DNA of 23,532 nt, taken from a virus. Numbering within the stretch: position 1 is the first letter of the stretch; every line of letters starts with the position of its first letter. The notes beneath the pieces were generated by a model. It ran no database searches and had not been told where the DNA came from. It saw only the letters and a list, made by a program, of their open reading frames with translations. The stretch lies in IMG/VR virus record IMGVR_UViG_3300021605_000013, positions 1-23,532 of that record; one strand, given 5' to 3'. Of the stretch, positions 67 to 20,182 are shown one piece after another. A program made the translations under genes and the position numbers.

Positions 67-73
67 GTGTCAA
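67..73 (-). promoter_or_regulatory. Start-linked element CTTGACAC, 17 nt before an ATG
   Basis: TTGACAC on the minus strand. Its TGA is the stop codon of the tape measure gene and it precedes the next ATG (50). Spacing is 17 nt, against 13-14 nt at most other copies. Confidence 0.55.
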
Positions 74-2481: not shown

Positions 2482-2489
2482 GTGTCAAT
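2482..2489 (-). promoter_or_regulatory. Start-linked element ATTGACAC, 13 nt before GTG 2469
   Basis: The minus strand reads ATTGACACG and then 12 more nt before the tape measure GTG. No Shine-Dalgarno sequence is visible in this leader. Confidence 0.7.
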
Positions 2490-2753: not shown

Positions 2754-4211
2754 ATGAAAGCCTGGATGACCAAAGCGATGGGGTTGCTGGAGGCAAGTCT
2801 TGAGCCGCCGAAGCACGAATTGAACGAACTGGATTGGAAGGCTGGACTGTCTCCTGACAAGAAACGGCTGACGGAACACCTGTCGGCGTTCGCAAACCAG
2901 CCAGGCGGAGGCTTTCTGGTTTTTGGGGTGGATAACACAGGCACGCCGGCCGGGGTAGATGAACCAACCGTCGAGACAACGGTGAACCAACTGGCCAACC
3001 TCGGGCGAATGGGGCTTGAGCCTCCGGTGGCGCTTGACCATGCGATGGAGGCTTACGAATCAGCGCGCCTGTTATTCGTGCATGTTCCGGAATCGCCGGT
3101 GAAACCGGTGCATATTCGGGGCAAGGGATTGGAGCATGCGTTCATTCGCTCCGGTGGCACGACCCGGAACGCGTCCCGGCAGGAAGTCGGCACTTTGATG
3201 CTGAACAGTCGGACGCCGCACTGGGAGGAATTGCACGCATCCGTATTGCTGGAGGATGCAGAATTTTCCTCAAAACTGAACGTCGAGCCAATTTTCAAGA
3301 TGCTGGAGCGTCCCGAGCCCACAACGCCCGAAGAAGTGCTGACTTGGCTGGCTGGGGAGCGACTCATTGTGCGCGAACCCGCAGGCGGGGGCTACATCAC
3401 GAATCTCGGCGTAATTTCGGCAGCGCGAAAACTCTCAGACTTCCCGGATCTGGGCCGCAAGGCGGTCCGGGTGGTCGTCTATGATGGGCTGAATAAAGCC
3501 ACGACCAAACAGGAGCAGGAGGGAACAAAAGGCTATGCCGTCAGCTTCCAGGGTCTGTTGGAGTTTGTCATGTCACTGCTTCCGCAGAGCGAGGTCATCG
3601 AGCAGGCGCTGCGGAGAAAGCGGACAGTGTATCCGGAGATTGCCCTTCGCGAAATTATCGCCAACGCACTGATTCACCAGGATTTTTCTGTCTCCGGTGC
3701 CGGTCCACTGATTGAAATATTTGACGATCGGATCGAGGTTTCAAATCCCGGTGGTCTGCTGCCATCCAAGCGGCTGGATCGTCTCATCGGCACGCAACCT
3801 GAATCCCGGAACGAGCAGTTGGCGCGAGCATTCCGGCGCTACAAGATTTGCGAGGAGCGAGGATCCGGGTTGCTCAAGGCGGGCTTGCAGGTGGAGATTT
3901 ACGGATTGCCGCCCATTGATTTTGCGGCTGGCCCCAATCATTTCAAGGTGACGCTGTTCACTCCGCGAACATTCGCCCAGATGTCGGCCCGTGAGCGATT
4001 GGAAGCCTGCTACCAACATGCCGTGTTGAAGCTTTACTCGGATAGCGCCATGACGAACAAATCGTTGCGTGAGCGGTTGAAAATGTCAGAGAAGCAGCGC
4101 TCGATGGTCTCCGTGCTCATTCAGGAAGCCATCGATAAGAAATTGATTCGATCTGCCGATCCGGCCAACAAGTCCAGAAAGTTTGCTGAATACCTGCCGT
4201 TCTGGGCATAG
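2754..4211 (+). CDS. AlbA_2 / ATP-binding (HATPase_c_4-type) HTH protein, moron
   Basis: A 485-residue protein of the Schlafen AlbA_2 plus GHKL-ATPase type. Residues about 20-145 match an AlbA_2 domain, with the nucleotide-binding-like stretch AFANQPGGGFLVFGVD (45-60) and FIRSGGTTRNASRQEV near 130-145. Residues 293-375 carry the GHKL-like N-box (YPEIALREIIANALIHQD), IEVSNPGGL and EERGSGL. The C-terminal 80 residues look like a winged helix (SLRERLKMSEKQRSMVSVLIQEA). Such proteins are usually annotated as ATP-binding transcription regulators, and AlbA_2 proteins also occur in anti-phage systems. It lies alone on the plus strand inside the minus-strand tail operon, between the gp10-like and tape measure genes, so it is not structural. 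Superinfection exclusion or lysogenic expression is my inference. The start is set by upstream context only; Met codons at 2766 and 2778 are alternatives. Confidence 0.85.
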   Translation: MKAWMTKAMGLLEASLEPPKHELNELDWKAGLSPDKKRLTEHLSAFANQPGGGFLVFGVDNTGTPAGVDEPTVETTVNQLANLGRMGLEPPVALDHAMEAYESARLLFVHVPESPVKPVHIRGKGLEHAFIRSGGTTRNASRQEVGTLMLNSRTPHWEELHASVLLEDAEFSSKLNVEPIFKMLERPEPTTPEEVLTWLAGERLIVREPAGGGYITNLGVISAARKLSDFPDLGRKAVRVVVYDGLNKATTKQEQEGTKGYAVSFQGLLEFVMSLLPQSEVIEQALRRKRTVYPEIALREIIANALIHQDFSVSGAGPLIEIFDDRIEVSNPGGLLPSKRLDRLIGTQPESRNEQLARAFRRYKICEERGSGLLKAGLQVEIYGLPPIDFAAGPNHFKVTLFTPRTFAQMSARERLEACYQHAVLKLYSDSAMTNKSLRERLKMSEKQRSMVSVLIQEAIDKKLIRSADPANKSRKFAEYLPFWA

Positions 4212-6710: not shown

Positions 6711-6923
6711 TTAGGGGAGTTCGCAGCCGGTCAGTTTGAGATCGAATTGGATGACGTAGGAGCGTTGGACCGTGTCCCCGGAAATTGTCTGCGAACGGGC
6801 AACAGAAAATCCCTTCGGGCGGGTTTCTTTGGGCGTCGCCTCAAACCGGGCGAGCGCCTGCTCGCAGAAATCGTAGGCGCAGCGGCGGAGTTCTGTTTGG
6901 TCTTTCGGTGTGTCAGCGGCCAT
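6711..6923 (-). CDS. Small tail-region protein, unknown
   Basis: A 70-residue protein starting at ATG 6923 (MAADTPKDQTELRRCAYDFC). A charged helix at the N-terminus is followed by a beta-like segment (VQRSYVIQFDLKLTGCELP). The start is supported by GTTGACAC 13 nt upstream, whose TGA is also the stop of the previous gene. Its position between the tail-terminator-like gene and the tail-tube-like pair matches lambda U, but it is about half the length of U. No family is recognised. Confidence 0.65.
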   Translation of the reverse strand: MAADTPKDQTELRRCAYDFCEQALARFEATPKETRPKGFSVARSQTISGDTVQRSYVIQFDLKLTGCELP

Positions 6924-6935
6924 GCACCGGAGGAC

Positions 6936-6943
6936 GTGTCAAC
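6936..6943 (-). promoter_or_regulatory. Start-linked element GTTGACAC, 13 nt before ATG 6923
   Basis: A perfect copy on the minus strand. The upstream gene's TGA stop (6939-6941) is inside the element. Confidence 0.7.
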
Positions 6944-7340
6944 CGAGACGGATGCCGGCGACCAGTTCAATGGTCGAACGCCAGGTGTTGTCGGCGATAT
7001 CCTCGGACTGCGAGCGCACGTGAAAACCGTGAAGCGTGAGGTTGCCCGCAACAGGATCAAAGACTGCCGCCGCAGCCGCCGGGTCGAGCAGCGAAAGTGC
7101 CAGCATGCCCGACGCCTCCCGGTGCTGGGCCTCGCCCATGTCGAAGGCTGGCGTGCCAAGGAACACCTTCACGGTCGCCTTGTAGAGCGGTCCGACGACA
7201 TGCTCGCACTCGGAGCACTGGACGATCACCATCTGGGCATCTGCCGGGTGCGGCTTTGAACTCGTGGCCTCGCGCACATGCACGCCAGGCATCGCCGCCC
7301 GGATCACCGCCACAAATCCCATTTCGATGTCCGTGTTCAT
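6939..7340 (-). CDS. Tail terminator / completion protein (putative)
   Basis: A 133-residue protein starting at ATG 7340, overlapping the upstream stop by four nt (ATGA). The N-terminus (MNTDIEMGFVAVIRAAMPGV) and the alternation of strands (VEVFL-type segments, then HGFHVRSQSEDIADNTWRST) fit small tail terminator or tail completion proteins of siphoviruses. Location after the neck gene and before the tail-tube-like pair supports this. The assignment rests on gene order and general pattern, not on a recognised motif. Confidence 0.55.
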   Translation of the reverse strand: MNTDIEMGFVAVIRAAMPGVHVREATSSKPHPADAQMVIVQCSECEHVVGPLYKATVKVFLGTPAFDMGEAQHREASGMLALSLLDPAAAAAVFDPVAGNLTLHGFHVRSQSEDIADNTWRSTIELVAGIRLG

Positions 7341-7642
7341 TCGACCGGCTCCACAGTGAGAGTGACGAGAGGATGCGGCGGACGGTTCGACACGCGAACG
7401 ATGCGGAAAGTTTCCCCGGCATAGGTGAGCGTCTGGCCGATCTGCGGAATCGCCGGAATGTCGTTACGTAACAACTTTACCGTGAAATTTCCGGAGGCGG
7501 TGAATCCGCCGGCCCCGAGTTCGAGGGTTTCCTGCGGCTCGGAGATCAGAGCGGGCAGCGTGCGCCCGGCAATGGCGACTTCTTTCCCGAACTCGGAAAA
7601 GATACCGGCCACATCGGCGGCCATTTCATCGTGGATGGACAT
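7337..7642 (-). CDS. Head-tail joining (neck) protein, FII-like by position
   Basis: A 101-residue protein starting at ATG 7642 (MSIHDEMAADVAGIFSEFGK). A short N-terminal helix is followed by a beta-rich domain (AIPQIGQTLTYAGETFRIVRVSNRPPHPLVTLTVEPVE). This layout is typical of lambda FII-type head-tail attachment proteins, and it is the first gene of the tail module after the capsid. The start carries GTTGACAC 13 nt upstream. A plus-strand insertion and a terminator lie between it and the capsid gene, so it needs readthrough, antitermination or its own promoter. It contains one copy of the GTTGTTACGTAACGAC repeat in the codons for LLRND. Confidence 0.65.
   Translation of the reverse strand: MSIHDEMAADVAGIFSEFGKEVAIAGRTLPALISEPQETLELGAGGFTASGNFTVKLLRNDIPAIPQIGQTLTYAGETFRIVRVSNRPPHPLVTLTVEPVE
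7460..7475 (-). repeat. 16-bp repeat with palindromic core GTTACGTAAC, copy 1
   Basis: The minus strand reads GTTGTTACGTAACGAC, identical to 19227-19242 on the plus strand. Here it lies inside the neck gene. Confidence 0.6.
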
Positions 7643-7654
7643 GCCACGCCGGGC

Positions 7655-7662
7655 GTGTCAAC
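7655..7662 (-). promoter_or_regulatory. Start-linked element GTTGACAC, 13 nt before ATG 7642
   Basis: A perfect copy directly upstream of the neck gene. The flanking upstream DNA belongs to the plus-strand insertion. Confidence 0.7.
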
Positions 7663-7670
7663 GGCTCTGC

Positions 7671-7698
7671 TTGAAAATGCCTCTGGATGGCGCACAAT
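7671..7698 (+). promoter_or_regulatory. Possible promoter of the plus-strand insertion gene
   Basis: TTGAAA (7671-7676), a 16-nt spacer and CACAAT (7693-7698) are followed seven nt later by GTG 7706. This would give a transcript with almost no leader. It is inferred from consensus matching only. Confidence 0.35.
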
Positions 7699-7705
7699 CG
7701 AATTT

Positions 7706-7975
7706 GTGGAAACTCCCTCAACAAAATCGCTCACGTTTTCCTCAGAAGAACGGGAATACATTCTCAACAGTGATCTCGCTTTGACGGAGGTCGGGCTGAC
7801 GTTGGTTGAGCGAGCGGTCGAAGAAGAAGGGCTCTTTTCCTTGGAATGCTCCAATGCGGATTACATGGAGTTCTTTCGGGCAGTTGGCGAGCAGTTGGCT
7901 TATCACGGTTTTAAGCCGGAAGAAGACAGCCTCCGCGCCCTGGCAGCACGTCTTGGCGTGAGCAATGTCGTCTGA
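7706..7975 (+). CDS. Small acidic moron protein, unknown
   Basis: An 89-residue open frame from GTG 7706 (VETPSTKSLTFSSEEREYIL); an ATG at 7631 is in frame but would overlap the neck gene. The protein is acidic and helical (SEEREYILNSDLALTEVGLTL, then FFRAVGEQLAYHGFKPEEDSLRALAARLG). Codon use is less G+C-rich than in the flanking minus-strand genes and the residue mix is unlike shadow frames. It lies alone on the plus strand between capsid and neck genes, next to a hairpin terminator, as morons do. No family is recognised. Confidence 0.6.
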   Translation: METPSTKSLTFSSEEREYILNSDLALTEVGLTLVERAVEEEGLFSLECSNADYMEFFRAVGEQLAYHGFKPEEDSLRALAARLGVSNVV

Positions 7976-8937: not shown

Positions 8938-9516
8938 TTACTTGGTTGAGGACAGGATTTGGTTTTTCTGGTCGGCGGAGAGTCCCTGCCAGAAAGCGGT
9001 CTGCTCGGCGGGATTGGTGATCGAGCGGAACCGCTCCAGGAGGCTGGCCGTCTGCGGTTCGCCTTTCGGGGTCACATTGGCCGGAGCCGAAGTGCCGGTT
9101 TCGGCGACGATCTGGGCGGCGCGGAGCGAGGCCCGCTTTTCCAAATCCTGCTCGGCGGCTTCCAGTGCGGCGTTGCGGGTCTGGATTTCTTTGAGGCTGA
9201 GATTGAGGGCGGCATTGCTCGCCTCGATTTCCTTGAGGCTCACGTCGAGCGCTGAGTTCTCGTTCGTAAGCGAGGCGATCGAGTGCTTGGCGGCGTCAAG
9301 ATCGGCGCGGGCCTGAACGTGCGCCTCGGCCTCGATCTGGCGCTCGGATTCGAGAACCTCCAGACGGGATTGCAGGCCGGTCGCGCTGGCGGTGGCCTCG
9401 GTGAGTTTGGTGTTGGCTTCGGTCAGGAGTGAGTCCCGAGCAGAAGCGTCGGCTTCCAGACGGGTAATCTGCTCACGGGCCTGGGCGAGTTCGTTTTCGA
9501 TGGATGGTGCGCTCAT
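8938..9516 (-). CDS. Nested capsid scaffold protein (Nu3-like), internal start
   Basis: An in-frame internal ATG at 9516 (MSAPSIENELAQAREQITRL) gives a 192-residue protein that is the C-terminal part of the protease gene. It would be coiled coil with a C-terminal capsid-binding region, the usual scaffold layout. The start is supported by GTTGACAC 14 nt upstream, the same element and spacing as at other gene starts here, although at this place it is also read as codons for V-D-T. The coil includes a near-repeat of 14 residues (SLKEIEASNAAL / SLKEIQTRNAAL). Lambda Nu3 gives the precedent; production here is inference. Confidence 0.75.
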   Translation of the reverse strand: MSAPSIENELAQAREQITRLEADASARDSLLTEANTKLTEATASATGLQSRLEVLESERQIEAEAHVQARADLDAAKHSIASLTNENSALDVSLKEIEASNAALNLSLKEIQTRNAALEAAEQDLEKRASLRAAQIVAETGTSAPANVTPKGEPQTASLLERFRSITNPAEQTAFWQGLSADQKNQILSSTK

Positions 9517-10338
9517 TGCACCGGAACCCGTGTCAACCGAACGAACATGCAGTTTGCGCAACCGGGACAGTGCGTCCGCTCGGCTTGCGACCATTCCGGC
9601 GAGGTTGAACCGCATCGCCTTCCGGGCAGAAAACGTCTGCCCCTCCATCGCCTCATCCGGGATCTTGCGACCGCGGGCGAGCACGGCGGCGTGAAAGTCA
9701 GCGGCGGTTTCCTCGACCTCGGATTGCAGCCAGGCCCGCTGGTCGTCGGTGAGGCTCGTGCCGGGAGTGCCAGCGCTTTTGAATTTCCCCGCCGCAAAGA
9801 CTTCCACCTTCAGTCCCGCCTGCTCAAACGCGGCCGAGGAATCCACGACCGGGAGGATCACGCCGATGGAGCCGATCCGTGCGCTCGGGGTGGCGTAGAT
9901 CGCGTCCGCCTGGCTCGCGACCCAGTAGGCAGCCGAGCACATCTGGCCCGCGCTGAACGCATAGACGTATTTCGTCTTGGAGGCGTCGGCGACTGCCTGG
10001 GCGAGTTCGGGGGTGCCGTTGACCGATCCGCCCGGGGAATCAATGTCGAGGAAGATAGCCTCGACGTCGGGACGGGCAGTAGCCTCGGCCACGGCATTGA
10101 TGAGTTCTCCGGTGTCGCAGGCTCCAAAGATGATCCGGTCGAAAATGTCCGGGTTACGGAGCATCGGGCCGGTGATCGAAATGACGCCCACGCCATCCTC
10201 CAATGCGAGGCAGGGCGAGTTCGGGCGCTCAGGAAGATCCGGCGCGTTGTCGAAGAACGATTTCGTGGCGGCGACCATTGCCCCGAGGGCTTCGGGCGCG
10301 ATCAGCCATGGCTGTTTTTGAAGGAGTGTGAGGTTCAC
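8938..10338 (-). CDS. Prohead protease (S49, lambda C-like) fused to scaffold
   Basis: A 466-residue protein starting at GTG 10338. Residues 1-265 form a ClpP/SppA-type S49 peptidase: IFLDIDSPGGSVNG (95-108), GQMCSAAYWVAS with the probable catalytic Ser135, and FKSAGT with the probable catalytic Lys187, spaced as in the SppA Ser-Lys dyad. Residues about 280-405 are a long coiled coil, followed by a proline-containing linker and a small C-terminal domain (SLLERFRSITNPAEQTAFWQGLSADQK). This is the lambda C/Nu3 layout: the protease matures the prohead and the in-frame 3' part is the scaffold. The start has an ATTGACAC element 14 nt upstream and a purine-rich GGGGGAGGGAGG leader. Confidence 0.92.
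   Translation of the reverse strand: MNLTLLQKQPWLIAPEALGAMVAATKSFFDNAPDLPERPNSPCLALEDGVGVISITGPMLRNPDIFDRIIFGACDTGELINAVAEATARPDVEAIFLDIDSPGGSVNGTPELAQAVADASKTKYVYAFSAGQMCSAAYWVASQADAIYATPSARIGSIGVILPVVDSSAAFEQAGLKVEVFAAGKFKSAGTPGTSLTDDQRAWLQSEVEETAADFHAAVLARGRKIPDEAMEGQTFSARKAMRFNLAGMVASRADALSRLRKLHVRSVDTGSGAMSAPSIENELAQAREQITRLEADASARDSLLTEANTKLTEATASATGLQSRLEVLESERQIEAEAHVQARADLDAAKHSIASLTNENSALDVSLKEIEASNAALNLSLKEIQTRNAALEAAEQDLEKRASLRAAQIVAETGTSAPANVTPKGEPQTASLLERFRSITNPAEQTAFWQGLSADQKNQILSSTK
9530..9537 (-). promoter_or_regulatory. Start-linked element GTTGACAC, 14 nt before internal ATG 9516
   Basis: A perfect copy lying inside coding sequence, in front of the presumed scaffold start. 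Confidence 0.7.
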
Positions 10339-10351
10339 GCCTCCCTCCCCC

Positions 10352-10359
10352 GTGTCAAT
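10352..10359 (-). promoter_or_regulatory. Start-linked element ATTGACAC, 14 nt before GTG 10338
   Basis: Precedes the protease GTG. The intervening sequence is one of the few with a clear purine-rich ribosome-binding tract. Confidence 0.7.
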
Positions 10360-10405: not shown

Positions 10406-10708
10406 ATGGATACCGACGAACTCACAGAAATGGCCTACGAGAGCATCGGGCTTGCTGGCGAAGCGAGCGATTGCCTGCGGGCCGAACTCGGAGCGGCGTG
10501 CTCGCGATACCAGAATGAGGACGAGTATCTCCTGGGGATTCTTGCCCATGTGAGGGCAATCCAAAAATCCCCCAAAAGCTACATTGATGAGTGGGATATC
10601 ACGGAGGACGAGGAGTTGGATTTTATCCCAAAGGTTCGCGAACTGCGAAAGCATATCGAGAAGACTCTTGCCGTGCCGCTGGCTGAACGTGGCAAGCCGG
10701 GATTCTGA
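10406..10708 (+). CDS. Small acidic moron protein, unknown
   Basis: A 100-residue protein from ATG 10406 (MDTDELTEMAYESIGLAGEA). It is helical and acidic (QNEDEYLLGILAHVRAIQK, ITEDEELDFIPKVRELRKH), ends one base before the convergent portal stop, and stands alone on the plus strand between portal and protease. The ATG is preceded by TATTTT seven nt upstream, like a -10 box placed for a nearly leaderless message. No family is recognised; moron by location. Confidence 0.65.
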   Translation: MDTDELTEMAYESIGLAGEASDCLRAELGAACSRYQNEDEYLLGILAHVRAIQKSPKSYIDEWDITEDEELDFIPKVRELRKHIEKTLAVPLAERGKPGF

Positions 10709-12166: not shown

Positions 12167-12414
12167 CGAGGGATAAAGTCAACGGTGGATTGGACGACAC
12201 GCCGCCCGCGCCCGTAGGTCTCGGGTGCCAGTTTGCGCAGCGCGTCCTGGCAGGCAGCGATCACGACATGGATTTCATCCAACCGACGCTTGGTCACCGC
12301 CGAACCGGAATCCGTCCACGAGGCGAGCGTCTTTTCCAACTCCGCCTTGTGGACCGCGAAGATTTTCTCCACCTCCTTTCGAGTGAACCCGATGGAATAG
12401 TCGATAGCGGCCAT
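12163..12414 (-). CDS. Head-tail connector, gpW-like
   Basis: An 83-residue protein from ATG 12414 (MAAIDYSIGFTRKEVEKIFA). Two helices flank a short turn containing SGSAVTKRRLDEIH, the gpW pattern of a Ser-x-Val-Thr hairpin before the second helix. Size and place (between terminase and portal) match lambda W, which joins the packaged head to the tail. It overlaps the portal start by ATGA and contains, near its end, the GTTGACT element of the portal start. The start itself has GTTGACAC 13 nt upstream. Confidence 0.75.
   Translation of the reverse strand: MAAIDYSIGFTRKEVEKIFAVHKAELEKTLASWTDSGSAVTKRRLDEIHVVIAACQDALRKLAPETYGRGRRVVQSTVDFIPR
12177..12183 (-). promoter_or_regulatory. Variant start-linked element GTTGACT, 10 nt before ATG 12166
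   Basis: Precedes the portal ATG with one mismatch (T for the last A) and shorter spacing; it lies in the connector gene. Weaker than other copies. Confidence 0.4.
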
Positions 12415-12426
12415 GCCGGACGGCGG

Positions 12427-12434
12427 GTGTCAAC
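12427..12434 (-). promoter_or_regulatory. Start-linked element GTTGACAC, 13 nt before ATG 12414
   Basis: A perfect copy. Its TGA (12432-12430) is the stop of the lysin gene. Confidence 0.7.
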
Positions 12435-12945
12435 GGATGATCCGAATGAATGAGCGAACAAGGCTGGCCGACCGACGCTTGCGCCACACGCCGTCGCCCG
12501 CGTTGCTGTCACGTTGGCCGCTGCCGTTCGTATTGCCCTCGATGCATTCGATCGACTCCGGTGAAATCTGGTCCTTCACGACGATGCCGATGTGGGAGAA
12601 CTCAAAAACGACGAGATCTCCAGCCTTCGCGAGCGCTTTTTTGTTCAGAACTTGCAGCCCCTTTTCCTTCGCCCACCGCTCGAAGTCGAACGCGCCAGCC
12701 GTCTGCGGCCGCCACTTTTCGCCCTCTTTGTCGTTGCGTAACGACAATTTCGCCAAAACTTCCGGTGACTTCAGCCATTCGCGCAGGATCCAGCAGATGA
12801 ACGCCGCGCACCACGGCCAGGGGGCAGGCTTGAGCCAGGTGGCGGATTGGTATTCGACGATGCGGGGTCCGCGGTTGTTTCCGCCTACTTCGTGTGTGCC
12901 CACCTCGTGGGTGGCGATTTCCAGGAGTCGTTTGATCGGGTCCAT
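12430..12945 (-). CDS. CHAP-type peptidoglycan hydrolase (lysin)
   Basis: A 171-residue protein from ATG 12945 (MDPIKRLLEIATHEVGTHEV). The papain-like (CHAP/NlpC) signature is present: PWCAAFICW with Cys46 as nucleophile, FSHIGIVV with His118, and EGNTN near 136-140 as the third polar residue. The pattern is that of amidases or endopeptidases that cut peptide links in peptidoglycan. There is no signal peptide. Its place between large terminase and the connector, among head genes, is odd for a lysis endolysin, so a virion-borne or packaging-linked wall hydrolase is possible. The start has a variant GTTGACG element 13 nt upstream. Confidence 0.85.
   Translation of the reverse strand: MDPIKRLLEIATHEVGTHEVGGNNRGPRIVEYQSATWLKPAPWPWCAAFICWILREWLKSPEVLAKLSLRNDKEGEKWRPQTAGAFDFERWAKEKGLQVLNKKALAKAGDLVVFEFSHIGIVVKDQISPESIECIEGNTNGSGQRDSNAGDGVWRKRRSASLVRSFIRIIR
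12730..12745. repeat. 16-bp repeat, variant copy (GTCGTTGCGTAACGAC)
   Basis: A near-palindrome inside the lysin gene, differing from the 7460 and 19227 copies at two positions when aligned in the best orientation. Here it encodes LRND in the same way as the 7460 copy. Confidence 0.45.
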
Positions 12946-12957
12946 GAACCCGACGCG

Positions 12958-12965
12958 GCGTCAAC
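12958..12965 (-). promoter_or_regulatory. Variant start-linked element GTTGACGC, 13 nt before ATG 12945
   Basis: One mismatch to the consensus at the sixth base of TTGACA; correct spacing before the lysin ATG. Confidence 0.5.
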
Positions 12966-15230: not shown

Positions 15231-15813
15231 GGAGGATTGCCGCGAATTCATCCACGGCGATTGAAAGCTCTTTGCGGATCGCGATCGCATCGAGGCCGGA
15301 GAGGATCGGCGGGATTTCCTGTTCAAGCCGCTTGCGGAGCAGCGCCACCGCCTGCCCGACGTGGTAGGCCCACCGGGTTTTCACGTCATCGAGGAGCACG
15401 TATTCGCCCTGCTTTACCTGGAGCCGGAACTCGCGCTCCATCACCTCGGCTAGCAACTTCCGGGCTTTGAGGGACGACTCCACATCCGACACGTCCTCTT
15501 CGTTTTTGAGCCCACGCTGTTTCACGAATTCCCGCCAGACCGCCACTTCATGCGTGCCGTTGGCATTCGCCTCCGGGGCGCCTTCGAGTTTCCGCCAAGC
15601 ATGGATCGCCTGCCTCGTCACCCCGAGCGCCTCGGCCAGTTCGTTGTAGTTGGCCGCGAGCGTGATCCCGCTCGCCACCGACCCGGCGGCCATCGCCTGG
15701 AGCATATTTCGCTCGGAGCGCGTGAGCTTTCCTCCTCCCTGAACCCGCTGGATCAGGTTGGAGAAATCACGGTTGAGAAGTTTACGCGCTACCTCGGGTG
15801 GAATCGGTTCCAT
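15208..15813 (-). CDS. Terminase small subunit (putative, Nu1-like)
   Basis: A 201-residue protein from ATG 15813 (MEPIPPEVARKLLNRDFSNL). A helix-turn-helix lies near residues 55-75 (YNELAEALGVTRQAIHAWRK), as in Nu1-type DNA-binding subunits that recognise the packaging site. The rest is charged helix (VESSLKARKLLAEVMEREFRL), compatible with oligomer contacts. It directly precedes the large subunit. The start carries a variant GTTGACT element 13 nt upstream, which lies four nt after the stop of the LysE-type gene. Confidence 0.85.
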   Translation of the reverse strand: MEPIPPEVARKLLNRDFSNLIQRVQGGGKLTRSERNMLQAMAAGSVASGITLAANYNELAEALGVTRQAIHAWRKLEGAPEANANGTHEVAVWREFVKQRGLKNEEDVSDVESSLKARKLLAEVMEREFRLQVKQGEYVLLDDVKTRWAYHVGQAVALLRKRLEQEIPPILSGLDAIAIRKELSIAVDEFAAILHDGEQAG

Positions 15814-15825
15814 CCACGCGGGATG

Positions 15826-15833
15826 GAGTCAAC
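15826..15833 (-). promoter_or_regulatory. Variant start-linked element GTTGACTC, 13 nt before ATG 15813
   Basis: One mismatch to TTGACA, correct 13-nt spacing before the small terminase ATG. Confidence 0.5.
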
Positions 15834-15836
15834 GAA

Positions 15837-16463
15837 CTATCGCTGGGTTAGTGCCAATTTGATCGCGATTCCGATGAACACGACTCCCGCAAATCGGTTA
15901 AGCCTTCTCTCCATGAACGCTGATCGCCGCAGCCATTGATTGACCCTCTCCGCCAAACAGGCGACGCAGCCAAAGACGAGAAGGGCCGCCAGCATGAAGA
16001 TTCCTCCGAGCATAAACATCTGAACAAAAACGGACCCGCGCGCGGGATCGGCAAACTGGGGAAGGAAGGCGAGGAAAAATATGGAAACCTTCGGGTTGGT
16101 GACGTTCATGATGATCCCCCGACGGTAAAGCATCGAGGGCGATGGCCTGTTGAGGTGTTGAGAGGAGTCGCTGGTTTTAGCGGCATGGAACGCCTGCCAG
16201 GCAAGGTAGAGAAGATATGCCGCTCCCGCGTATTTGAGCACGGTGAAGGTTGTCGGGGACGCCTGAATGATCGCGGCGACACCAAATGCAACCGCCGTAG
16301 TATGAACGAGGAGGCCGGAACACAATCCCAGCGTGATCCATAGCCCGGCGGTCCTCCCGTAAATGACTGACTGAGCCAGCACGAATATATTGTCCGGGCC
16401 TGGAGCTACCGCCAGAAGCAGGGAGGCGGCAAAGAAGGAAATGACTGTCTGGTTGGCCAGCAT
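15837..16463 (-). CDS. LysE/RhtB-family amino-acid exporter
   Basis: A 208-residue integral membrane protein from ATG 16463, which begins immediately after the TGA of the HTH gene. The family signature LLAVAPGPDNIFVLAQSVIYGRTAGLWITLGLCSG (about 16-50) is clear, and further membrane segments follow (AAYLLYLAWQAFH, VSIFFLAFLPQF, MLAALLVFGCVACLAE, GVVFIGIAIKLAL), giving the usual about six. The family exports amino acids or homoserine lactones. It lies in the late-operon direction between the phage regulator and terminase, so it is host-type cargo carried by the phage or a leftover of a host junction. No sign of decay is visible. Confidence 0.9.
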   Translation of the reverse strand: MLANQTVISFFAASLLLAVAPGPDNIFVLAQSVIYGRTAGLWITLGLCSGLLVHTTAVAFGVAAIIQASPTTFTVLKYAGAAYLLYLAWQAFHAAKTSDSSQHLNRPSPSMLYRRGIIMNVTNPKVSIFFLAFLPQFADPARGSVFVQMFMLGGIFMLAALLVFGCVACLAERVNQWLRRSAFMERRLNRFAGVVFIGIAIKLALTQR

Positions 16464-16652
16464 TCAGTTTGAACGCCCTGAGATCACCTGCAGGATCGCC
16501 TTGAGCCCATAGCCGTTCGGCATGTTCCGGGCGATTTCCCAGTTCTGGAGCGTGCGGATGGAAATCCCGAGGTGGTCGGCTGCATCCTGCTGGGTGAATC
16601 CGTTCTTGGCCCGCCAGCGTTGGATGGTCTTTTGAAATTCCTTCCGCGTCAT
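16464..16652 (-). CDS. XRE-type helix-turn-helix regulator
   Basis: A 62-residue protein from ATG 16652 (MTRKEFQKTIQRWRAKNGFT). Nine more codons are open upstream, but this ATG is the better start because it leaves room for the promoter. The HTH is complete (FTQQDAADHLGISIRTLQNWE, about 19-39). It is only a DNA-binding domain, without the C-terminal cleavage domain of lambda CI. It is divergent from the ParB-like gene across a short region that holds a perfect 18-bp palindrome with TTGACA half-sites, its likely operator. Role as repressor or Cro-like switch is inferred from position. Confidence 0.8.
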   Translation of the reverse strand: MTRKEFQKTIQRWRAKNGFTQQDAADHLGISIRTLQNWEIARNMPNGYGLKAILQVISGRSN

Positions 16653-16683
16653 GGTGACGATCCTACGCGAGACACGCACACGG

Positions 16684-16701
16684 CTGTCAAGCGGTTGACA
16701 G
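16684..16701. promoter_or_regulatory. Palindromic operator in a divergent promoter region
   Basis: CTGTCAAGCGGTTGACAG: perfect 7-bp arms around GCGG. It lies between the divergent HTH and ParB-like genes. On the minus strand TTGACA is followed 19 nt later by TAGGAT, a possible promoter for the HTH gene. The half-site TTGACA equals the core of the start-linked elements. Confidence 0.65.
16694..16701 (+). promoter_or_regulatory. Variant start-linked element GTTGACAG, 14 nt before GTG 16715
   Basis: The right arm of the operator, at the same spacing from the ParB-like GTG as the other copies from their starts. Confidence 0.55.
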
Positions 16702-16714
16702 CAGTGGCGAGGCT

Positions 16715-17392
16715 GTGACCGTCCACTGCGCCCATAACCAGCTCGTTGATCCCCGGAAACTCAAACCGAACCCGGTCAACCCGAACCGGCACAGCGCCCA
16801 CCAGATCCAGCTTCTGGCCGCGATCATCCAGGAACAAGGGTGGCGGTCGCCGATCACGGTGAGCAAACGGAGCGGGCTGATCGTCCGCGGCCACGGCCGG
16901 CTCGAAGCAGCCCTGCTCATCGGTTGTGAAACCGTGCCAGTGGACATCCAGGATTACGAGTCTGAGGCGGCGGAACTGGCCGACCTGCTCGCCGACAACC
17001 GGCTTTCTGAACTCGCCGAGCTCGATGAAGACGACCTCAAGCGTGTCGTGGACAAGCTGCGGGAGAGCGATCCCACGTTCGACATCGAACTCACCGGCTT
17101 CATGGAGAGCGAGATCGACAAACTTTTTGCCGAGGCCGATCCCGCCGAAGACCTCGAAACCATCCCCCGCATGGAATGTCAGGCATTCGAGCACCACGAC
17201 TACCTGGTTTTTATCTTCCACGACCTCCGGGATTGGATGCTCGCACTCCAACTCATCGGCGTGAAGGAAGTCGATTATTCAATCACCCGCAAAACCAAGA
17301 AAATCGGCATCGGCCGCGTCCTCCATGGAAAAAGACTCATCGAACTCGCGCAAAAAGCGGCCAGCGCCGCTCCAGCTCCAACCGCAGGGTAG
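16715..17392 (+). CDS. ParB/Srx N-terminal domain protein
   Basis: A 225-residue protein from GTG 16715 (MTVHCAHNQLVDPRKLKPNP). The N-terminal ParB/Srx domain is clear: LKPNPVNPNRHS (16-27), QIQLLAAIIQEQGWRSPITV, and IVRGHGRLEAALLIGCETVPVDI (56-78). A charged helical stretch (SELAELDEDDLKRVVDKLR) follows, then a C-terminal region (YLVFIFHDLRDWMLALQLIG, KTKKIGIGRVLHGKRLIEL). Phages often carry such proteins next to terminase genes, alone or as the N-terminal half of DNA methylases; no methylase domain is present here. Roles include DNA binding and CTP or ATP-related nuclease activity, not decidable here. Its stop overlaps the start of a tRNA gene. Confidence 0.8.
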   Translation: MTVHCAHNQLVDPRKLKPNPVNPNRHSAHQIQLLAAIIQEQGWRSPITVSKRSGLIVRGHGRLEAALLIGCETVPVDIQDYESEAAELADLLADNRLSELAELDEDDLKRVVDKLRESDPTFDIELTGFMESEIDKLFAEADPAEDLETIPRMECQAFEHHDYLVFIFHDLRDWMLALQLIGVKEVDYSITRKTKKIGIGRVLHGKRLIELAQKAASAAPAPTAG

Positions 17393-17454
17393 TGAAAGTG
17401 GTGTCACGGCGGATTCATACCCCGCAAATCCGGGTTCAACTCCCGGCCCTGCAA
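17383..17454 (+). tRNA. tRNA-Met (CAT), possibly initiator-like
   Basis: A full cloverleaf can be folded: acceptor CGCAGGG with CCCTGCA (positions 2-7 paired, C1 opposite A72 unpaired), D-stem GTGA/TCAC, anticodon stem GCGGA/CCCGC with loop TTCATAC (anticodon CAT), T-arm CCGGG-TTCAACT-CCCGG, discriminator A and then CC. The C1-A72 mismatch is the hallmark of bacterial initiator tRNA, but the stem has A31-C39 in place of the third G-C pair of a true initiator. An Ile tRNA with modified CAT is an alternative. Its first ten bases overlap the end of the ParB-like gene. The integrase gene starts about 350 nt downstream, so the tRNA may also relate to the attachment site. Confidence 0.85.
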
Positions 17455-17516
17455 CCCTTCCCGCTCCCTTAGTGGAATTCCCCGAACTCCGTCCTATTGC
17501 GATCCGTGTCGTGATC

Positions 17517-17852
17517 ATGAGCCGCAGCCGCCAGCGGTCGATCACAACGCACCGGCTGTTCCCGGCGGCCACGCTGGTCGTGCCGGAATCCGAAATCGCC
17601 AGCTACGCCCACATCCCGCTTGAGAAAGTTGGGATCCCCGATTCGATCAGCGGAGTGAGCGCCGTGCGGAATTGGATCGTCGCCCACTTCGCCGAGGAAT
17701 GCCTCGTGATGATGGAACAACAAGACAACCACTCACAATCAACAACTTACGGGCAAGTCACGATTCCGCCTGACAAATTACAGGACAAATTGACACCGGA
17801 GCATCAGCATGAAGAAGTCAAAGAAAAATCTGCCCATCGTTATTTCCGATGA
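17517..17852 (+). CDS. Small protein before the integrase, unknown
   Basis: An open frame of 111 codons from ATG 17517 (MSRSRQRSITTHRLFPAATL), with GTG 17511 as an alternative. It ends 44 nt inside the integrase gene. A compact region (LVVPESEIASYAHIPLEKVGI, then AVRNWIVAHFAEECLVMM) looks protein-like; the C-terminus is polar (HEEVKEKSAHRYFR) and partly reads through the integrase start. The frame also runs back across the tRNA, which I exclude from the gene. No family is recognised. Confidence 0.5.
   Translation: MSRSRQRSITTHRLFPAATLVVPESEIASYAHIPLEKVGIPDSISGVSAVRNWIVAHFAEECLVMMEQQDNHSQSTTYGQVTIPPDKLQDKLTPEHQHEEVKEKSAHRYFR
17789..17796 (+). promoter_or_regulatory. Start-linked element ATTGACAC, 13 nt before ATG 17809
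   Basis: Plus-strand copy before the integrase ATG, embedded in the 3' part of the preceding open frame. Confidence 0.7.
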
Positions 17853-19252: not shown

Positions 19253-19260
19253 GTTGACAC
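19253..19260 (+). promoter_or_regulatory. Start-linked element GTTGACAC, 13 nt before ATG 19273
   Basis: A perfect plus-strand copy. The leader also has a GGAAGGGGG tract that could bind the ribosome. Confidence 0.7.
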
Positions 19261-19272
19261 GGCGGAAGGGGG

Positions 19273-19521
19273 ATGAGTGAAAACACATCCACCAAACCGG
19301 GCGAGTGGCTGACAGAACAGCAACTCGCCGATCACCTGCACGTATCCGTCCGCCACATGGCAAACCTCCGAAAGAGAGGGCTGCCGTTTGTGCAACTGGG
19401 GTCGAGCGTGCGTTACAAGCTCGACGAAATCGAAGCCTACCTGTGCGGGAACCGGCGGCTGTCCTCCCATGTGGAGCGCAAGCGCCGGCAGGCGAACCCT
19501 GATCTTGGAGGGCAGCCATGA
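19273..19521 (+). CDS. Excisionase-like HTH (MerR-type) protein
   Basis: An 82-residue protein from ATG 19273 (MSENTSTKPGEWLTEQQLAD). Residues about 12-60 form a winged HTH of the excisionase/helix_turn_helix_17 type: WLTEQQLADHLHVSVRHMANLRKRGLPFVQLG, then VRYKLDEIEAYL. A basic tail follows (HVERKRRQANPD). It lies directly after the integrase, the usual place for a directionality factor, and its stop overlaps the next start by ATGA. A replication or transcription role is an alternative. Confidence 0.75.
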   Translation: MSENTSTKPGEWLTEQQLADHLHVSVRHMANLRKRGLPFVQLGSSVRYKLDEIEAYLCGNRRLSSHVERKRRQANPDLGGQP

Positions 19522-19859
19522 ACCTCACGGACGTTGTGTTTCTGCCGCTGCCCGAGGGCGTGCAGTTTGAGGCGACACGGGAAAGCGAGAGGGCGAAAGC
19601 CACGGCGGTGCGCCTGGGGATGATTCCGCAGATGGACCGGGACCTGAATCGCCCCGGGCTCAATATTGCCGCCGCGATGGGGCGGGATGGCGAGTGGATG
19701 CGGGCGATTATCGCGAGCAACGACCCCGAGGTGACCGGATTCGACTGGATGGGGTTCTCGGTGTCGCCGATCAGCGAGGAGGCGACAAATTGGCTCCTGG
19801 AGCTGGTGGTGATCGTTTCCCGCGCGGATCCAAGCACGGCGCGGCTCGTGGAGCACTGA
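19518..19859 (+). CDS. Unknown early protein, paralogue A
   Basis: A 113-residue protein from ATG 19518 (MNLTDVVFLPLPEGVQFEAT), with a GGAGG ribosome-binding site ten nt before the ATG and ATGA overlap with the previous gene. It is acidic, with no membrane segment. It aligns with the next gene over its length: LPEG near the start, TAVRLG, RDGEWMR, and SPISEEAT followed by a hydrophobic helix. Probably a small globular protein of the replication or early module; function unknown. Five nt separate it from its paralogue. Confidence 0.75.
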   Translation: MNLTDVVFLPLPEGVQFEATRESERAKATAVRLGMIPQMDRDLNRPGLNIAAAMGRDGEWMRAIIASNDPEVTGFDWMGFSVSPISEEATNWLLELVVIVSRADPSTARLVEH

Positions 19860-19864
19860 CGGCC

Positions 19865-20182
19865 ATGATGCCTCCACTTGTGTTGCCCGAGGGGGCGGTC
19901 CTGCTCAAGGACATGGACGAGGACAGTGCGCGCAGGACGGCCGTCCGTCTCGGATACCATTCGACCATCGAGGCGGTGCTCCAAGACGCGAACGGGCCAT
20001 GTGGGGCATCGGTGCTGCAACGCGACGGTGATTGGCTCAGGGGTATTTACGCATGGCAGGGATTCAAATTCTGGAAGGGGTGGGCAACTTTATCCATCTC
20101 GCCCGTGAACGAGGAAACGGCCGCGTTCATGCTCAGGATTACGCGGATGCTCGTGGATGGGGATGTCCCGCCATGCCTGTGA
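19865..20182 (+). CDS. Unknown early protein, paralogue B
   Basis: A 105-residue protein from ATG 19865 (MMPPLVLPEGAVLLKDMDED). The frame is open further upstream but there it overlaps paralogue A. It repeats the pattern of the previous gene: LPEG, TAVRLG, QRDGDWLRG, SISPVNEETAAFML. The two have diverged well (identity confined to these blocks), so the duplication is old or the family was acquired twice. It overlaps the primase-like start by ten nt. Function unknown. Confidence 0.75.
   Translation: MMPPLVLPEGAVLLKDMDEDSARRTAVRLGYHSTIEAVLQDANGPCGASVLQRDGDWLRGIYAWQGFKFWKGWATLSISPVNEETAAFMLRITRMLVDGDVPPCL

Follow-up and report, generated by a model that had tools for sequence, protein, structure and literature searches.

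The window, the whole stretch of DNA analysed here, is an entire IMG/VR virus record of 23,532 bases. A sequence-only reading had described a palindrome, CTGTCAAGCGGTTGACAG, between the divergent genes for a helix-turn-helix (HTH) protein and a ParB-like protein, and had placed its right arm at a 14-nt start spacing from the ParB-like gene. We found both descriptions to be correct. The features of the locus are:

16464..16652, minus strand: gene for a 62-aa Xre/HTH_3 protein (ATG at 16652), with homologues 42-98% identical in about 60 loci
16660..16665, minus strand: TAGGAT, a possible -10 hexamer of the HTH gene; TAG(G/T)nT is conserved here in relatives
16684..16701: the palindrome CTGTCAAGCGGTTGACAG, two head-to-head TTGACA with 4 nt between them
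16685..16690, minus strand: left arm TTGACA, 32 nt before the HTH ATG at 16652; a possible -35 hexamer
16695..16700, plus strand: right arm TTGACA, the start-linked element of the ParB-like gene, 14 nt before the GTG at 16715; retained in nearly all relatives
16715..17392, plus strand: gene for a ParB-like (ParB_N) protein of 225 aa, with a GTG start

Between the HTH gene and terS lies a gene for a LysE-type exporter (15837-16463, minus strand), which among the related loci is present in just two other contigs (L084; L007/L085). A complete tRNA-Met(cat) gene (17383-17456, plus strand) overlaps both the ParB-like gene, at its 3' end, and the frame that follows, near the integrase gene.

The arms of the palindrome match perfectly over 7 bp, and a pattern search of the window for TGTCAA-N0-12-TTGACA returned this site only. 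We nevertheless rejected the palindrome as a significant inverted repeat, as the counts were no better than chance: counting inverted repeats in the window (arm length 7 or above, spacer 0-12) gave 21, against 34 expected, and 2 had a spacer of 4, against 2.7 expected. The number of TTGACA copies is likewise ordinary (11, with 8.6 expected). What far exceeds chance is their placement before starts, not the symmetry of the palindrome. Nine of the 11 copies lie exactly 13 or 14 nt upstream of a gene start, on both strands and before early and late genes (binomial tail ~5e-25, before correction for 4096 hexamers); the tenth lies 17 nt before an ATG, and the eleventh is the left arm of the palindrome. 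When all hexamers in the window were scored in this way, those lacking the TTGAC core reached a start-linkage of at most 2/12. The palindrome is best read as two independent single elements, one for each diverging gene, facing away from each other. The single-site form of the element is GTTGACAC, and its copies elsewhere in the window, with two variants, are:

68..73, minus strand: TTGACA, including the TGA stop of the tape-measure gene, 17 nt before the ATG at position 50
2483..2488, minus strand: TTGACA, 13 nt before the tape-measure GTG at 2469
6937..6942, minus strand: TTGACA, including the TGA stop of the upstream gene, 13 nt before the ATG at 6923
7656..7661, minus strand: TTGACA, 13 nt before the ATG at 7642
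9531..9536, minus strand: TTGACA within the protease gene, 14 nt before an in-frame nested (scaffold-like) ATG at 9516
8938..9516, minus strand: the nested in-frame scaffold-like frame, within the head maturation protease gene (8938-10338)
10353..10358, minus strand: TTGACA, 14 nt before the protease GTG at 10338
12428..12433, minus strand: TTGACA, including the endolysin TGA stop, 13 nt before the ATG at 12414
12959..12964, minus strand: variant TTGACG, 13 nt before the endolysin ATG at 12945; a TTGAC element is present in 12/12 orthologues
15827..15832, minus strand: variant TTGACT, 13 nt before the terS ATG at 15813; a TTGAC element is present in 47/49 orthologues
17790..17795, plus strand: TTGACA, 13 nt before the integrase ATG at 17809
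19254..19259, plus strand: TTGACA, 13 nt before the excisionase-like ATG at 19273

The proposal that the half-site has sense-oriented copies ahead of both early and late genes was borne out, and start-linked copies always read TTGACA in the same direction as the gene that they precede. Three plus-strand frames inside the minus-strand late operon (2754-4211, 7631-7975 and 10406-10708) are likely cargo genes; the first encodes SLFN_AlbA_2 and RecG-C-terminal (HATPase_c_4) domains, and the other two had no Pfam match. Two small adjacent plus-strand frames, 19518-19859 and 19865-20182, resemble diverged tandem paralogues.

A TerL search provided 80 viral loci related at 98-68% identity and another 24 loci from bacterial genomes, the latter nearly all titled Verrucomicrobia; the nearest named phages, Verrucomicrobia phage P8625 among them, have ~25% TerL identity. 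Across the relatives, ATG or GTG follows TTGACA at 13-17 nt far more commonly than at other distances, and 117 of 196 non-redundant TTGACA sites have an open start in this range. For the 17 phages with 68-76% TerL identity, the 13-14 nt distance accounted for 58 of 105 TTGACA sites, and the wider range of 13-17 nt for 81 counts. Start-linkage holds in phages whose TerL or portal is at least 50% identical, and the TTGAC motif is constant over TerL identities from ~50 to 98%. No start-linked copy was present among the 20 TTGACA of P8625, a lytic phage with a distant TerL.

The consensus of the element is gTTGACAC, a C-rich stretch, GGGc and the start codon; its core form is gTTGAC[A/g], then 13-17 nt, then the start codon. 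A G located 12 nt after TTGACA keeps its distance to TTGACA even when the start shifts to 16 nt. In L112, a prophage of 43% GC, TTGACA and a distance of 16-17 nt are all that remains of the consensus. In 98 of 224 cases, an upstream frame ends on the TGA within TTGAC. Aligned start sites contained no covarying pairs between element and start, and single RNA folds were unremarkable; an RNA hairpin between TTGACA and the start was rejected because covariation was absent. The L112 prophage, from Opitutales, also carries a perfect palindrome, GTGTCAACCACTGGTTGACAC (7071-7091), upstream of a ParB-methylase-like gene. It occurs once there, has arms off the usual start distance and resembles a true operator.

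We also compared loci in a collection assembled through the ParB-like protein. Where TerL or portal was related and no HTH homologue was detected (29 loci), 115 of 153 TTGACA were start-linked, versus 26 of 252 in 50 loci that pair a ParB-like gene with unrelated TerL and portal. Because ParB relatives with other terminases are without the start-linked element, we rejected a linkage of the element to the ParB-like protein. By this comparison, the element follows the phage lineage set by the structural genes, and not the HTH or the ParB-like gene.

The hosts were sampled as 400 kb of genome G004 and 200 kb each of G006 and G009 (800 kb from three genomes). TTGACA showed no peak before starts in this sample (1/92, 0/39 and 2/19 at 13-14 nt), and a host-wide translation or promoter signal was rejected for that reason. 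Genome-wide, TTGACA-N13-14-ATG occurs 16-52 times per host genome, modestly above a reversed-pattern control. The matches concentrate in prophages; a 31-kb part of contig C27, for example, accounts for 8 of the 25 in G006, and the spacings there agree with those of the related locus L108. Because the sampled hosts have no start peak and the matches cluster in prophages, the element belongs to the phage lineage and not to the host.

The left arm of the palindrome may have an additional role. In HTH-bearing relatives, TAG(G/T)nT follows TTGAC after 17-19 nt and, in the group of the window, is itself followed by ~7 nt and the ATG; the possible layout in the window is TTGACA-N19-TAGGAT-N7-ATG (16652-16690, minus strand). 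This conserved downstream motif suggests a promoter of the HTH gene, in which the left arm may also be the -35 box and the HTH transcript would be nearly leaderless. A standard sigma-70 scan of 16400-17000 called no promoter.

How the element might act is suggested by which genes carry it. Its presence by gene is near binary and follows independence from the upstream gene. It precedes terS in 47/49 orthologues, endolysin in 12/12, protease in 37/39, g7642 in 14/14 and gpW in 31/43, and is absent from portal (0/32, all ATGA overlaps), the major capsid protein (MCP; 0/18), g7340 (0/8) and g6398 (0/13). Counted over orthologues, which are not independent of one another, it precedes 121 of 144 starts with a gap of more than 10 nt versus 38 of 150 coupled starts; the gap preference could partly reflect room for any short DNA site. 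At the nested start in the protease gene, the element lies at 12-18 nt in 14 of 17 orthologues, and the other three have GTTGACA nearby; GTT-GAC is present in all 17. The nested frame is probably a scaffold gene, by analogy with lambda C/Nu3.

The sequence-only reading had remarked that a fixed spacing to start codons argues for a possible part in translation, and our data lend support to this point: the tight start distance, the presence of the element at an in-frame nested start and its scarcity at coupled starts each favour an action in translation. The element is not complementary to the conserved 3' end of 16S rRNA (the CCUCC region), and a pattern search for the 16S 3' tail gave a match in 2 of 7 genomes. 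Because the element lacks this complementarity and is unused by hosts, an action in translation would call for a phage-specific factor. Upstream of long ORFs in stretches L119-L158 of G004, G006 and G009, with starts called roughly, we found no Shine-Dalgarno enrichment over control, and some Verrucomicrobia are listed as Shine-Dalgarno-scarce (PMC10783764).

We therefore consider a model in which the element would act on the mRNA at translation initiation, helping ribosomes to start at genes unable to rely on coupling to the upstream gene, in hosts that appear to make little use of Shine-Dalgarno pairing; the left arm would double as the -35 box of the HTH gene. To the whole of this reading, in which the palindrome is two lineage-specific start-linked elements that act on mRNA at translation initiation and the left arm is also a -35 box, we give an even chance of being right. 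A broader proposal, which we put forward tentatively and would not be surprised to see fail, is that these Verrucomicrobia phages use a start signal of their own, TTGAC 13-17 nt upstream, read by a phage-encoded or phage-induced factor, which replaces Shine-Dalgarno at independently recruited genes including the nested gene. If translation is indeed directed by the element, these phages would have a start signal specific to them in bacteria with little Shine-Dalgarno use of their own, and the element would offer a way into start selection by the ribosomes of such bacteria. Several results count against an action in translation: 38 of the 150 coupled starts bear the element, the MCP gene, expected to be strongly expressed, is without it, there is no covarying hairpin, and the stoperators of phage D29 share its core and sense orientation. 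The G that keeps its distance to TTGACA and not to the start codon would fit a bipartite protein site equally well.

The strongest rival to translation is a stoperator-like grid, in which the element would be an asymmetric DNA site for a phage repressor, other than or besides the HTH protein. Bound there, the repressor would stop transcription at gene junctions and also at promoters that have the element across their -35 box. We judge this unlikely, yet deserving of serious weight. The L5 stoperators had been named as a parallel to the element, and the comparison proved apt: the L5-type sites that we examined in D29 (L159) read CTTGACAKCCACC on the sense strand, and the cluster A stoperators (GGTGGMTGTCAAG) resemble the element in their TTGACA core, in their sense orientation with transcription, in their many asymmetric sites near gene junctions and in that they may overlap a -35 box, as the left arm may here. 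In D29, the TTG annotated as the start codon of several genes belongs to the stoperator itself. The family encodes integrase and excisionase genes, so that a repressor is expected, and the bipartite TTGAC...G signature would suit a two-domain protein. However, only the element studied here has a fixed start distance; 13-17 nt, kept also at the nested start, has no reason at the DNA level, and the D29 sites lie at scattered distances, several of them far from any start. Cluster A stoperator motifs change together with their repressors (PMC6550527), whereas the TTGAC element stays constant over TerL identities from ~50 to 98% and with an HTH protein that is 42-98% identical or absent. Cluster A repressors are monomers of ~183 aa with an HTH and a Stoperator domain (PMC9283540), and the local 62-aa protein has one HTH domain and no such second DNA-binding domain; its profile retrieved no cluster A repressor from the PDB up to E = 10, and a shared repressor was not found. 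If the element is a DNA site after all, it would represent a second stoperator-like system with a TTGACA core, in an unrelated phage group.

It may instead be that each gene has its own promoter, served by a phage-specific or alternative sigma factor and giving very short leaders that start at the conserved G ~12 nt after TTGACA. Such promoters would account for the anchoring of this G to TTGACA and not to the start codon, for the phage specificity of the element and for the nested start. We regard them as improbable, since the 10-12 nt to be melted are C/G-rich, with C the most frequent base at positions 6-13 of the 13-nt class, since many copies are intra-operon and sit on the upstream stop codon (98/224), and since no phage sigma factor or RNA polymerase was present among the window proteins tested.

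The sequence-only reading had taken the palindrome for an operator of the HTH protein built from two TTGACA half-sites. The arms are indeed copies of the start-linked element, but their use as a specific dimer operator of the 62-aa protein did not hold up, and we consider it very improbable. The position of the site between a divergent regulator and an early gene and its perfect 7-bp arms speak for such an operator, and HTH_3/Xre proteins often bind palindromic sites of this type. A dimer operator would be expected to keep its half-sites at a fixed spacing together with its protein. We aligned the ParB-upstream regions of about 60 relatives; many ParB starts called by tblastn sit two codons inside the gene, which gives a raw element distance of 19-20 nt. 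The ParB-side TTGAC was retained in nearly all relatives, 13-17 nt from the likely start. The spacing between the arms was 1, 2, 4, 5, 7, 9, 10, 11 or 15 nt, and the opposite arm was absent within 20 nt in 18 of 63 relatives. While several close relatives share the spacing of 4, it is 10 nt in L012 and L013, where the HTH protein is 95% and 89% identical to that of the window.

What lies between ParB and terS varies: it may be the HTH gene, other genes or no gene at all. Loci without an HTH gene there, such as L103, L033, L071, L080 and L060, have the opposite arm 15-16 nt upstream of terS. Head-to-head pairs in L109, L108 and L103 have each arm 13-16 nt before its own start; the spacings in L108 and L109 differ from that of the window, and L103 has the same 4-nt palindrome with its arms 14 and 16 nt before their starts. 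A profile search with the HTH protein found no homologue in the G006 genome, only a weak match in G004, and none in viral records G011-G015 and G017, which are fragments, so that absence there is not proof; the element is present in all of these. In addition, the inverted-repeat counts do not raise the palindrome above chance. These alignments give no support to a dimer operator of fixed geometry, and the palindrome should not be annotated as the operator of the regulator. The HTH protein may still bind single TTGAC sites. Ordinary host sigma-70 -35 boxes, whose consensus TTGACA is and of which the left arm may be one, are the least probable explanation and can be largely set aside: the aligned start-linked sites have no -10-like signal 17 nt downstream, for which reason a sigma-70 promoter at each gene was rejected, transcription would begin downstream of start codons that lie at 13-17 nt, and the scan around the palindrome found no promoter of this type.

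The element can also be compared with two other known kinds. Translational operators of the T4 RegA type are repeated mRNA sites at gene starts that act on many genes. Our element is likewise repeated at gene starts; a RegA-like protein was not identified here.

The closest known kind is that of the Start-Associated Sequences (SAS), described in mycobacteriophages of cluster K and in Microbacterium phages of cluster EF: short asymmetric repeats just upstream of start codons, which occur at a subset of genes and mostly in one orientation, sometimes include the upstream stop codon, are absent from the host and are conserved across subclusters (PMC3203893, PMC7302621). The element shares with SAS a near-fixed distance upstream of the starts of a subset of genes, and it is not start-linked in the sampled host genomes. 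The two have no sequence relation. SAS (GGGATAGGAGCCC) is a 13-bp repeat with an AGGAG-type Shine-Dalgarno core in the usual place, and about half of the SAS sites have extended inverted repeats (ESAS) upstream; the element, in contrast, has TTGAC 13-17 nt upstream of the start and no Shine-Dalgarno core at the usual place, in Shine-Dalgarno-poor hosts. We regard the element as an unrelated variant of this kind and not as SAS itself. Should the element direct translation, SAS-like elements, whose role has been open since 2011, would gain a second, unrelated and clearly non-Shine-Dalgarno case with a testable distance.
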